Program-made: the position numbers and the translations under genes
Origin: a virus
Length of the DNA stretch: 37,522 bases
Virus record (IMG/VR): IMGVR_UViG_3300009094_000040
Location: 1-37,522 of that record
Direction: 5' to 3' (one strand)
Part shown: positions 4,066 to 29,901 of the stretch, one piece after another
How positions within the stretch are numbered: position 1 is the stretch's first letter
Layout: each line of letters opens with the position of its first letter
Notes under the pieces: model-generated
Database searches by the model: none
Told to the model about the DNA's origin: nothing
What the model saw: only the letters and a program-made list of their open reading frames with translations

Positions 4066-4274
4066 TGATAAAGATTGCACATTTAGAACACCCCGAAGGT
4101 TCTAATCGAAAAGCTTGTAATGGAGAGTTATTAGATATTGAGGACTACTCAACTTATCCAGTTCCGGCTACTAAAAATGCTATCAAACAGTGTCGAGCTT
4201 GTTTGTTAGCTGCGAATAGAGTTGCGGTGAAAGAACGTGAGCAGAAAAAGTCAGCTTTTAATCGAGCACCATAG
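4065..4274 (+). CDS. small hypothetical protein with paired Cys
   Basis: A 69-aa protein of unknown function. Cys at about 18, 43 and 46 (CRAC) and a His at 6 could bind a metal. The C-terminus is basic. The start is taken as ATG 4065, overlapping the terL stop (TAATG); an in-frame ATG lies at 4059. Its 3' end overlaps the next small membrane ORF. Confidence 0.6.
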   Translation: MIKIAHLEHPEGSNRKACNGELLDIEDYSTYPVPATKNAIKQCRACLLAANRVAVKEREQKKSAFNRAP

Positions 4275-26246: not shown

Positions 26247-26872
26247 TATCCCATCTCCTTCCAGAACACTTTAAATAATTGATGTGCGATCCACACATCT
26301 TTACAACAGTAAGCCCACATAACACTCGCTGGTATCTCTCCCCAACGTAAAGCTTTGAGCAAAACCTTAAGCGTGTCATCGTCCTTACCCTTGTCTTTCA
26401 ATACGTACTTAGCCAACCAGTCTAACTGTTTAGAAGGAAATTCTTCATTGACAAATTGTGCGAGACTAAGAGTACAATAGAAAGGTTTATCTAATACGTC
26501 AATACCAAGAGTAGCTAATGATGGAATATCGAATGGTGCATTATGATAAACCAATGTACTATTCTCTATTACTTCCGTGAATTCCTCTAGCCACTCATGA
26601 GGGAGATTATTGTCCACATGACGCCAAGGGAGATAATAATACCAATCGCTACCCATAGAAGTGTAGCCGACACCAACTCCAGTACAATAACAAGTGCCGT
26701 CAATAAGATATGAAGCTTTCGGTTTCGCACCCTTATACGCATCTGTTGTCTCCGTGTCACATACCACGTAAGGTGCTTGGGAAGCCGTTACTAATACAGT
26801 CTCAAATAGCTTACGTTCATTAACAAGTCTAAAAGTCGATCCCGCCCTCGGGACTAAACCCACCGATGTCAT
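26246..26872 (-). CDS. 3'-5' proofreading exonuclease (DnaQ/Pol I type)
   Basis: An exonuclease domain encoded apart from the polymerase. Exo I is VVCDTETTD, Exo II VYHNAPFDIPSL, and Exo III YCCKDVWIAHQLF, giving the DEDDy metal-binding set. The start is uncertain. The frame is open from 26923, but that would overlap the primase-helicase by 95 bp; ATG 26872 gives a 44-bp overlap and still precedes the domain. It would proofread for the polymerase encoded at 24794-26026. Confidence 0.85.
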   Translation of the reverse strand: MTSVGLVPRAGSTFRLVNERKLFETVLVTASQAPYVVCDTETTDAYKGAKPKASYLIDGTCYCTGVGVGYTSMGSDWYYYLPWRHVDNNLPHEWLEEFTEVIENSTLVYHNAPFDIPSLATLGIDVLDKPFYCTLSLAQFVNEEFPSKQLDWLAKYVLKDKGKDDDTLKVLLKALRWGEIPASVMWAYCCKDVWIAHQLFKVFWKEMG

Positions 26873-28634
26873 CGTCGTTTTCGATTGCTGCGTCTGTAAT
26901 AAGTCCGGACTCATTAATGACATCAGGCTGCTTCCTAGTGAGAGCTTTAAGATCAGTCTGTTCTGCTAGATTGAATCCATCAGTAAACTCAACAAGATAT
27001 GGATTCTCTAAACGACTGTAACGATGCTTGATGTTGATAAACTCTACAACTTTATGGAGAGGATCATTACTCCATAATGTGTAACCGTCATCTATAGAAG
27101 CTGTGATATAACCACTACCAAATACGTCATCTATTGTTTTCGGTTTCTTATTGCCGACTGACTCTTTTCTATTGTGGTGAATGTACCATGTGAAAATCTT
27201 ATACTGATTCCTAAGAGTCGCATCCCAATCCATAAGGGGCCTAACGTTTTCATCTTTACTGAGGTCCTTATGATTGGTCCGACCAAGGGAGTCGATGAAT
27301 ATTCCGTCAAGTTCATGTTCCTCGATCACACTTCTAATAAGTTGTGAGTTATGTGCGCCTTGAACTTCCATAGCTTGACCAAGTGGAATGATCTTTAGGT
27401 GCTCCTGTAGGAGAGTAATCTGTTCCTTGGTCATTTTAGGAACCATCTTGCTTAGGAAGAATTTGATACCAGGAAGGCTCATTTCAAGTGAAAAGAAAGC
27501 AACCTTTTTAGGTTTCTCGATATTATAACGTAAGAACGGTACACCTAATGCAAGAGAAATAGCGAACTGCAAGCTGATTTTAGTTTTGCCCACTCCGGGC
27601 TTGGCTGTCACCATGCCGCAGCCCTGCGATTGCAACATGCCCTCAGCGACCCATTCTAACTGTACGTTAGAGTCCAATACTTCCTTTAAACCGAGTACAG
27701 GCAACTCTCTAATAACCATAGAGTTGTTAGCAAAAGGATGCTTAACACGGGCCCTGACAATAATATCATTAAGTCTTTGTTCACGGTCATTCCGATGCTT
27801 AAACTTTCCCCACCAATTGTCTGCGGTGTGCAGGCAGGAAAATATCTCTCTGTCATTAAGTCCTATTTCAGCACAGTAATAACCTAGCTGCATTAACTTT
27901 GTTGATCTGTCACCTTCTGCTACATCTTTAGAACGAAGGAGACGGAAAGCTGCTAACGGCCAGGGGTATTTAGCTACAATTTCTTGAACGTTTAATAGAT
28001 CAGCTTTAGTGTAGATTTGCGCGGCAGTCGGAGGTTTTGGAACTGTATCGAATTTGGAAGGCTCAAAGATGAAGGTATTAAAGGAAGAAACTTCGACACG
28101 CCGTTTGCGTTTATGGTTATAAGTAGTCGGAGGTCTAAGGACTTGATTTCGGTCCCATCCCGAAGTATCAGCATTGAGTTTATAAGAAAGGGCTCGATTA
28201 ATGGATTCGATCCAGTCGGCATCTGAGTTGAAGGATTCGAGTCGCCAGTACCAATGTTCGTGTCCATTGTCTGATGTCTTAATCCTTAATGAAGGTTCCG
28301 GAATTTCTCCAAGAGACTCCGGAATATTACCGTCTAGTTCTATCCAAACAACATGGCTTCCAATAACAGCAGACTTATTAGCGTCATTAACCCTAAACAA
28401 TGAAGGGGCCAAGTAGACCTCTTTTTGCGGTGCCTCTTCGATGATGTGTTGAATAATCTCAGCCTTTTGGGAGGGCCAACTAAAGAAGCTTGTACTCCAA
28501 GTCGGCGGTTCCTTCTCTCCCGTATATTCTTTTGTTGGGGAATATACATAACCCTGCTCCGTCCCATAAAGAAATTCGAGGTAATCCTCTAGCGTCATCT
28601 GTCCGGACGAAACAGACTCTAACATGGAGGCCAC
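26829..28634 (-). CDS. AEP-type primase fused to RecA-like helicase
   Basis: A 601-aa replication protein. The N-terminal domain fits an archaeo-eukaryotic primase fold: VVWIELDG (E99, D101), NGHEHWYWRLE (H125/H127) and D155 or D161 before LRPPTTYNHK (about 166-175). A helical linker follows. From about 325 comes a RecA-fold ATPase of the RepA/DnaB group: Walker A AKPGVGKT (344-351), FFSLEMS (380-386) and Walker B IFIDSL (D448). It would unwind and prime DNA at the fork. The start is taken as GTG 28634, preceded by AGGA; ATG 28625 is the alternative. Confidence 0.83.
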   Translation of the reverse strand: MASMLESVSSGQMTLEDYLEFLYGTEQGYVYSPTKEYTGEKEPPTWSTSFFSWPSQKAEIIQHIIEEAPQKEVYLAPSLFRVNDANKSAVIGSHVVWIELDGNIPESLGEIPEPSLRIKTSDNGHEHWYWRLESFNSDADWIESINRALSYKLNADTSGWDRNQVLRPPTTYNHKRKRRVEVSSFNTFIFEPSKFDTVPKPPTAAQIYTKADLLNVQEIVAKYPWPLAAFRLLRSKDVAEGDRSTKLMQLGYYCAEIGLNDREIFSCLHTADNWWGKFKHRNDREQRLNDIIVRARVKHPFANNSMVIRELPVLGLKEVLDSNVQLEWVAEGMLQSQGCGMVTAKPGVGKTKISLQFAISLALGVPFLRYNIEKPKKVAFFSLEMSLPGIKFFLSKMVPKMTKEQITLLQEHLKIIPLGQAMEVQGAHNSQLIRSVIEEHELDGIFIDSLGRTNHKDLSKDENVRPLMDWDATLRNQYKIFTWYIHHNRKESVGNKKPKTIDDVFGSGYITASIDDGYTLWSNDPLHKVVEFINIKHRYSRLENPYLVEFTDGFNLAEQTDLKALTRKQPDVINESGLITDAAIENDDDIGGFSPEGGIDF

Positions 28635-28643
28635 TTAGTTTTC

Positions 28644-29204
28644 CTAGACTAGTGTGAGTAACACCTTGAAATCTGCAATTAACGTATTGATCTGCTTTGG
28701 GTTGTATGATGCAACCGCTGGATGGTACAAGAACACTACAGGGGGATTACTCTGAGTATAGGTGTGACCATGAGATTCACGAGGAGAATGTAATGGGAAG
28801 AACATTTGAATAGCTGGCTTACCCATTAATCCAAGAACCTTGGGTTTAACAATCTCAATTTCTTTTTGTACGTACGGTTTATTGTAAGCCGACTCAGCTT
28901 CTGTAGGTTTACGATCCTTACCTAGATCATCAATAGGTCGATACTTCACAGTGTTAGTGATGAATATTGAATCACGTTTAACTTTAGCTCTCAAGCAAAG
29001 TAGGTCCAATACCTCTCCGGCTGGACCTACAAATGGCTCTCCTACTTTGTCCTCTTGCTTACCTGGGGCCTCACCGATAAGCATAATATCAGGGTGTAGC
29101 GGGCCTACCCCTCGGACGAATTTAGTTGCACTCTCCCTCAAATTCACTAATATTGGATTCTTATCTTCTCGATACTTTCGATATAATTCTTCTAACTCTT
29201 CCAT
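28644..29204 (-). CDS. uracil-DNA glycosylase, family 4-like, lacking cluster cysteines
   Basis: A 186-aa enzyme predicted to remove uracil from DNA. Motifs are GEAPGKQED (44-52), PFVGPAG (57-63), NTVKYRP (84-90) and HPA (161-163). Family 4 enzymes normally bind a 4Fe-4S cluster; here the KCRP cysteine is Tyr88, the later cysteine is absent, and no CxxC is seen near the N-terminus. ATG 29204 is chosen because the upstream frame to 29246 lies inside a tRNA gene. That ATG begins two bases after the tRNA's last base, so no Shine-Dalgarno can precede it outside the tRNA. Confidence 0.85.
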   Translation of the reverse strand: MEELEELYRKYREDKNPILVNLRESATKFVRGVGPLHPDIMLIGEAPGKQEDKVGEPFVGPAGEVLDLLCLRAKVKRDSIFITNTVKYRPIDDLGKDRKPTEAESAYNKPYVQKEIEIVKPKVLGLMGKPAIQMFFPLHSPRESHGHTYTQSNPPVVFLYHPAVASYNPKQINTLIADFKVLLTLV

Positions 29205-29205
29205 G

Positions 29206-29288
29206 TGCCGGAGGCGGGAATCGAACCCGCAAGGTTCTCTAACCAACGGATTTTAAGTCCGTCGCGTTTGCCGTTTCGCCACTCCGGC
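29206..29288 (-). tRNA. tRNA-Leu (UAA anticodon)
   Basis: An 83-nt class II tRNA. The acceptor stem is GCCGGAG/CTCCGGC with discriminator A at 29206. The anticodon stem-loop reads GGACTTAAAATCC (anticodon TAA), a variable arm follows (GTTGGTTAGAGAAC), and the T arm is GCGGGTTCGATTCCCGC. CCA is not encoded. It lies on the minus strand between the SSB-like gene and the glycosylase gene, within the operon. It may supplement decoding of UUA codons, which are common in this genome by eye. Confidence 0.95.
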
Positions 29289-29292
29289 GGAA

Positions 29293-29342
29293 CCCTATAT
29301 AATCCCTGTGGTGGTGAGCCAGCCTGGGCTCATTATATAGGG
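29293..29342 (-). other. two-tier inverted repeat in the tRNA 5' leader
   Basis: Outer arms CCCTATATAA (29293-29302) and TTATATAGGG (29333-29342) enclose inner arms TGAGCC (29315-29320) and GGCTCA (29327-29332) with a 6-nt loop. A 12-nt bulge lies on one side. It sits just upstream of the tRNA on the minus strand. There is no U-tract. It could guide processing of the tRNA 5' end, or be a protein-binding site. Confidence 0.5.
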
Positions 29343-29359
29343 TCTATTCAGTTATATCT

Positions 29360-29377
29360 CTTCTAGTTTCCTAGAAG
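29360..29377 (-). other. hairpin at the end of the SSB-like gene
   Basis: CTTCTAG-TTTC-CTAGAAG is a perfect 7-bp stem. On the minus-strand RNA the loop is GAAA, and the stop codon of the SSB-like gene lies in the stem. There is no U-tract, so mRNA stabilisation is more likely than termination. Confidence 0.4.
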
Positions 29378-29901
29378 TCTGCGTCAGCATTAGTAGCTGG
29401 TGCAACTTCCTCAGATGCAAAAGGATCAATGCGACCCTCTGGACGTGGCTTAATAGCAGTCACGTTCCGATAAGTACCACTCTTCTGCACCTTAATCCAA
29501 ACAGGCTTACCCTCAAGGTTCTTCAAATCCGAGCGGGTAATACTGTTCAGGTCAAGTCCAAGGGACTTCATGTGCTCTTTAAGCTGCTGTTGCAAAAAGA
29601 GCTTGTCATTCTCTCCGTTAGCAGGGAGGAAGTGATCCTGGTTATAGCCGTCAAGCTTATCACCAGGCATATCAACCTTGTACTTGAAGGAAAAAGCACG
29701 AGCACTCGGGTCCTTTTTAGTTCCCTTAACTGCGCGAGCCATAGTGATATGGGCCGGGTAGGTCCCATTAAGTCCATCAGGAACATCGGCAAGACCGAGG
29801 TCTGCAACTAAGTTCTCATCCGGATCAAAAGAATCATCGTTCCCAACATTTGGAGTTGGGTCCGTAGTAGTGGGCTCATCTGCCCAAGGATCGGCTGTCA
29901 T
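29371..29901 (-). CDS. single-stranded DNA-binding-like protein
   Basis: A 176-aa protein. An acidic N-terminal tail (1-42) precedes a beta-rich OB-like core (about 43-150) with NGTYPAHITMARAV, FSFKYKVDMPG and LEGKPVWIKVQKSGTYRNV, then an acidic C-terminal tail ending DADF. The order of core and acidic tail is that of phage SSBs, where the tail recruits partners. It lies in ATGA overlap after a Sak4-like ATPase, the usual partner of such proteins. No sequence motif is decisive. Confidence 0.65.
   Translation of the reverse strand: MTADPWADEPTTTDPTPNVGNDDSFDPDENLVADLGLADVPDGLNGTYPAHITMARAVKGTKKDPSARAFSFKYKVDMPGDKLDGYNQDHFLPANGENDKLFLQQQLKEHMKSLGLDLNSITRSDLKNLEGKPVWIKVQKSGTYRNVTAIKPRPEGRIDPFASEEVAPATNADADF

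Follow-up and report, generated by a model that had tools for sequence, protein, structure and literature searches.

Constant spacing between tRNA-like elements and start codons in related actinophages suggests that tRNA-cutting enzymes divide phage messages into separate mRNAs, some starting at the start codon

In mitochondria, tRNAs lie between genes, and their excision sets the ends of the mRNAs; start codons are found at or next to a tRNA 3' end, and the products are leaderless. The phage locus described here resembles that system in having a tRNA between genes with a start codon next to the tRNA 3' end. It differs in that these phages infect bacteria that also use Shine-Dalgarno (SD) starts, in that cleavage is predicted, and in that the tRNA is often replaced by a minihelix that does not decode. 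A second related system is formed by the leaderless mRNAs of mycobacteria and Streptomyces, messages that actinobacterial hosts translate well (PMC4633059, PMC4681348). In both cases the ATG or GTG would be the 5' end and there is no SD sequence. The known leaderless mRNAs, however, start at a transcription start site, whereas in the phage it would be tRNA-type processing that creates the 5' end, and a sense-strand scan for sigma70-like sites turned up nothing promoter-like in the phage tRNA. Finally, tRNA-like RNase P substrates in mRNAs and bacterial Y RNAs (YrlA), which contain tRNA-like modules, have in common with our elements that an RNA other than a decoding tRNA folds like a tRNA and could be recognized by tRNA enzymes. 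The minihelix differs in being short, intergenic and repeated, with a 12-bp acceptor/T stack, a 3' purine-C and no Rfam match.

The window, by which we mean the whole stretch of DNA analysed, covers positions 1-37,522 of IMG/VR record IMGVR_UViG_3300009094_000040 (37,522 nt, or 37.5 kb). Its minus strand carries an operon in the order exonuclease, Sak4-like protein, ssb-like protein, hairpin, tRNA-Leu(UAA), a single C, a UDG-superfamily gene and a helicase. The tRNA-Leu(UAA) occupies 29206..29288 on the minus strand (Rfam RF00005, 64.4 bits; the ARAGORN call, 29205-29288 (-), includes the spacer base). It is complete, with a cloverleaf, a UAA anticodon and the long variable arm of class II; CCA is not encoded, and the discriminator is A 29206. 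This tRNA has an ordinary reason to exist because TTA is the commonest Leu codon in the window (282 uses). The bases, read directly, run ...CTCCGGC-A(29206)-C(29205)-ATG(29204-29202), with the C at 29205 (minus strand) as the only spacer, and the end of the tRNA, the spacer and the ATG thus lie exactly where the initial annotation had placed them. The ATG opens a gene of 186 aa (28644..29204, minus strand; PF03167, E 3.7e-29, 102 bits against a cut-off of 24.3) in which GEAPG and HPA motifs are visible. Its product is assigned to the UDG superfamily only; a strict family 4 UDG was rejected, as this requires four Fe-S cluster cysteines and the protein has a single Cys.

Downstream lies a replicative helicase/primase-like gene (26829..28634, minus strand; phrog_3123, E 6e-83; PF13481), which served as the query for relatives. 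As a single query it recovered none, and a two-sequence alignment query did recover relatives; in the phage collection no close DNA relatives were found apart from tRNA-Leu similarity. The helicase and terminase relatives belong to phages of Arthrobacter, Microbacterium and Cellulosimicrobium, and an actinobacterial host background therefore fits. The upstream gene (29371..29901, minus strand; 176 aa) has no Pfam or PHROG match, and based on its position and its acidic/Phe C terminus it probably encodes an ssDNA-binding protein; its counterpart in a relative, L012, has a DUF669 match just below the cut-off. Directly 5' of the tRNA is a stem-loop (29292..29343, minus strand) with 12-bp arms, ACCCTATATAAT / ATTATATAGGGT, a fold of -23.7 kcal/mol and a regional z of -3.8 against shuffles.

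The 20 bases 5' of the UDG ATG have an anti-SD energy of -1.1 kcal/mol, i.e., no SD sequence, against a median of -4.25 kcal/mol for the 42 genes of the window. Energies of -4 or below are found for 67% of the window genes versus 23% of random 20-mers. The start itself is backed by alignment and by the absence of good alternatives. A TTG at 29246 lies inside the tRNA and was rejected by conservation, and GTG/TTG starts at codons 20/22 would cut off conserved residues. The same annotation had named a better downstream start, and also a promoter within the tRNA, as evidence against its reading; neither turned up, with no sense-strand sigma70-like site between 29000 and 29500 in a scan that covered sigma70-type promoters. 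The UDG gene thus carries both sequence marks of a leaderless gene, the lack of an SD and an ATG/GTG start, as well as that of tRNA punctuation, a tRNA that abuts a coding sequence and is kept in relatives. As far as sequence can tell, the proposal that tRNA maturation releases a leaderless message appears partly supported.

Based on this arrangement, we infer that the junction between tRNA-Leu and UDG may be an operon punctuation site in a polycistronic phage message. RNase P would cut at the tRNA 5' end and RNase Z, or another 3' tRNA endonuclease, at the 3' end. The products would be the tRNA-Leu, an upstream message ending in a hairpin cap, for which the stem-loop at 29292..29343 is a possible candidate once the tRNA 5' end is cut, and a glycosylase message starting at the AUG or one base before it, which actinobacterial ribosomes would read without an SD sequence. 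The junction would be one instance of something more general among actinophages, namely the use of full tRNAs, reduced tRNAs and minihelices of 43-53 nt between genes as cleavage signals. We give this model as a whole, for the junction and the wider elements together, a probability of about two in three.

What is described of the enzymes bears on the details. RNase Z usually cuts just past the discriminator, and some of these enzymes require an acceptor stem and a T arm but can dispense with the other two arms, D and anticodon (PMC7479834). Cytidines right after the discriminator lower cleavage by several RNase Zs, the strong effect being that of CC/CCA trailers (PMC7479834); the window has one C there and not such a trailer, and this C nonetheless counts against RNase Z cutting. 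Most S. coelicolor tRNAs with an encoded CCA are cleaved between its two Cs, one base past the discriminator (PMC4681348). Such a cut would here fall just before the AUG, and with either cut the message would begin (C)AUG. Leaderless translation in mycobacteria requires ATG/GTG (PMC4633059), and the abutting starts use only these two codons, matching that requirement.

Three other IMG/VR contigs (L001-L003) have the same locus and gene order, with UDG 47-48% and helicase 51% identical. Their junction, tRNA-Leu(taa) with ...CTAGGGC-A-C-ATG, has the same tRNA, spacer base and spacing as the window, and L001 has no alternative in-frame start nearby. Between the window and these contigs the acceptor and T stems differ through paired changes, and each locus of the family has its own, different hairpin directly 5' of the tRNA. 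Another relative, L013, still has tRNA-Leu behind the ssb-like gene, but the ORF that comes next carries AGGAGGTGA and is thus SD-led, and UDG is located elsewhere with its own SD. The junction is missing from several relatives (Jasmine, Shocker). The tRNA-Leu(UAA) of L001 (4897-4970) and that of L013 (2871-2945) have a short variable arm and not the long class II arm; they may be poorly charged and may represent an intermediate between the window tRNA and the stub of L012. L013 also contains unassigned structured RNAs (2560-2850 and 4160-4206): its tRNA is surrounded by several strong inverted repeats and by segments resembling tRNAs, and a terminator-like hairpin lies ahead of UDG.

In L012, a more distant relative, UDG is absent and an unrelated 165-aa ORF begins at the same place. 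It is preceded by a stub, TCCCTAG-(14 nt)-TAGGG-TTCGATT-CCCTA-CTAGGGA-G-C-ATG, consisting of a 7-bp acceptor and a T arm, which can be aligned with tRNA-Leu as a relative that has lost the D and anticodon arms. Past its 3' end the one-base spacer C and then the ATG are retained. Against Rfam, the stub has no match above the gathering score. As it cannot decode, what was retained would be the region that RNase Z and RNase P recognize.

Another reading is that we see gene packing only, with UDG translated from intact polycistronic RNA by SD-independent initiation or re-initiation and no processing at this place. We consider this unlikely, even though the phage is compact, with numerous ATGA-type overlaps, and the tRNA is complete and useful for the many TTA codons. 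From the upstream stop to the UDG ATG there are 165 nt, too far for simple coupling, and the ATG comes after a stable tRNA fold. Moreover, the exact spacing and the C outlast both the loss of the tRNA body in L012 and gene replacement in several lineages, and packing does not predict that a covarying stub is retained. ATGs that abut a tRNA at other spacings do exist in viral contigs, in agreement with packing. We surveyed a sample of viral contigs, with at most 120 stretches per scan and not as a census, for full tRNAs followed by C-ATG, and among the matches listed an ORF of at least 60 aa was found in 26/73 cases at spacing 1 versus 7/62 at spacings 3-8 (Fisher p = 0.0012); for ORFs of at least 40 aa the numbers were 39/73 and 10/62 (p = 6e-6). 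tRNA stubs outside the family of the window surfaced in the same survey. In this sample, ATGs at spacing 2 from the discriminator, which share the A of an encoded CCA, are commoner than those at spacing 1, and 9/33 such cases have an ORF of at least 60 aa; starts at spacing 2 make up a second class of tRNA-abutting starts.

The element that takes the place of the tRNA elsewhere, the minihelix, is a tRNA-like structure of 43-53 nt with a 12-bp acceptor/T stack, a canonical T-loop and a 3' purine-C. Its helices of 6+6 bp add up to a 12-bp stack, as do the 7+5 of a tRNA. It occurs in intergenic gaps of phages and prophages of Microbacterium, Gordonia, Mycobacterium and Streptomyces, and a weaker match was found in Corynebacterium phage StAB. 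Across 12 sequences pairing is 99.3% and 7/12 pairs have changed on both sides, giving 25 such cells, a result reached in 0/500 shuffles and lost when the pairing partner was slid. A further lineage, together with its upstream hairpin, gave 14 double-changed cells (0/500 shuffles). A search for the acceptor and T arm in shuffled genomes gave approximately 0 hits. When the C was not required in the search, all strict minihelices still ended in A-C or G-C (22/22), and therefore the spacer C of the window seems to belong to the element and not to be a gap that arose by chance; a C follows the discriminator in every relative examined. No Rfam family matches the minihelices of L443, L449, L450 and L403, and no description was found in the open-access literature, whose coverage is incomplete, so the minihelix seems to be a previously undescribed element.

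Our model of the element, R1, consists of a 6+6 or 7+5 bp acceptor/T stack, a TTCRANY loop and a 3' R-C. The window, which has the full tRNA, is not matched by R1 at E 0.1, and the homologous position of L012 is; a minihelix model built without L012 matches the L012 stub at E 0.0036. The window tRNA and the minihelices may be one homologous element or may reflect convergent use of tRNA parts, L012 being the link between them by synteny and by the model. Whole-genome scans with R1 found the element in 1/250 Microbacteriaceae and 0/245 control-class genomes, counts of little weight because just 25-26 candidates per genome were scored. A 46-nt type A query recovered 27 actinophage/phage records with 45 places, mostly unannotated gaps.

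Following the operon outward from the stubs (exonuclease, ssb-like, stub, small gene, prim-pol) gave three types of junction. Type A (GCCCGG-A-tggtcgcagg-CGCGG-TTCGACT-CCGCG-C-CCGGGC-A-C-ATG) is found in Microbacterium sp. 3J1, in a prophage (L403), and in IMG/VR contigs, and L420 has a compensatory change in the T stem. Type B (GCCCTG...CAGGGC-A-C-ATG) is found in M. salsuginis and others, and type C, which combines a hairpin with a reduced tRNA, in contigs that carry a WhiB-like gene. A tRNA or minihelix comes after the ssb-like gene in several lineages. An ATG or GTG directly after R-C was found for at least six unrelated gene families, and there is nothing between the C and the start codon in the case of UDG, the L012 ORF, Zn-ribbon-like ORFs, a glutaredoxin (L413), a prim-pol with GTG (L419), and a 60-73-aa family with ATG, or GTG in L430. 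Some lineages may share the junction by descent, and these families are therefore not fully independent events. Two ORFs after a minihelix (L410 and L411; 232 and 220 aa) have no Pfam hit, may be spurious and were excluded from the family count. The initial annotation had asked whether relatives keep the one-base spacing, and they do, together with the C, in L001, L012 and other actinophage lineages. At loci without the 60-73-aa gene, the gene that comes next is equipped with a GGGGG-type SD of its own.

In most phages the next gene is SD-led and begins 11-50 nt downstream of the minihelix. Gordonia phage VanLee has 17 catalogued copies, all in sense orientation and all intergenic, and in its left-going block they are present in 16/17 gaps of at least 60 nt. 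They mostly lie 2-34 nt, typically 5-15 nt, past the upstream stop, and typically another 27-49 nt separate them from the SD-led start that follows. Indlulamithi, a phage of M. smegmatis, has a minihelix in 9/14 gaps of at least 60 nt, and copies also occur in Morgana, Dagobah, SWU2 and HINdeR. None was found in Arthrobacter phages Eileen, Shambre1, Bridgette and RootBeer, which are prim-pol relatives. On the chromosome of Arthrobacter sp. GMC3 (L405, 3908-3952) a minihelix lies ahead of an SD-led prim-pol gene, presumably in a prophage. At a VanLee locus separate from the minihelices (L443, 25330-25558), two sub-threshold YrlA matches (47 and 33 bits; gathering 69) adjoin an annotated Ro-like protein and a tRNA-Arg; this is likely a phage Ro/Y RNA system.

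The position of these copies raises the question of whether the tRNA or minihelix mainly serves the upstream message after the ssb-like gene, as a 3'-end former, a stabilizer or a pause or termination signal, the abutting start being secondary. Most minihelices of the VanLee gaps sit 2-34 nt past upstream stops, minihelices are retained even ahead of genes that have an SD of their own, and unrelated hairpins are found directly 5' of the element in the window, in L001 and in type C loci. The absence of a T-run argues against such a role, which also leaves unexplained why unrelated genes start, with ATG or GTG, exactly one base past the element. As the main function we find it rather improbable, somewhat more so than packing; it is compatible with the cutting model rather than opposed to it.

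Two further readings have much less in their favor. The uncleaved element could be a tRNA-mimicking translation-initiation structure touching the start codon, an idea suggested by the exact spacing to RTG in a subset and by the canonical T-loop and GGT-containing linker, which point to a tRNA-like elbow. Since most copies lie 11-50 nt before an SD-led start, and since the window and L001 have a full tRNA at that place, this is very unlikely. tRNA 3' ends are frequent phage integration sites, and a copy of a host tRNA 3' end that serves as attachment site and is adjacent to the ATG incidentally might be considered for that reason. We rejected an attP of this kind, the least probable of the readings, because both acceptor strands are present and covary and because there are many copies, up to 17 per genome, over many gene gaps.

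Because of their placement, covariation and conservation, we read the elements as candidate cleavage signals that separate messages. Since most minihelices precede an SD-led leader, message cutting is probably the conserved function, leaderless starts being one outcome. The VanLee-type copies point the same way, as do those type C loci that lack the small gene: the common denominator is message cutting or upstream 3'-end formation, and not leaderless translation. On balance it is probable, a little less so than the model as a whole, that tRNA enzymes cut the polycistronic mRNA of actinophages one gene at a time at minihelices, of which a genome can have as many as 17, that some of these cuts fall at a start codon and give leaderless mRNAs, and that the window tRNA-Leu is the full-tRNA form of the same signal.

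The minihelices may explain why gaps of ~90-100 nt recur regularly in some actinophage genomes, and annotators gain an unlisted RNA element and a start-codon rule. Cultured phages of M. smegmatis and Gordonia, as well as Microbacterium prophages, allow the punctuation model to be tested. If it is true, these phages would have a bacterial-virus counterpart of mitochondrial tRNA punctuation, and actinobacteria would have a second route to leaderless mRNA, by processing rather than by transcription start.
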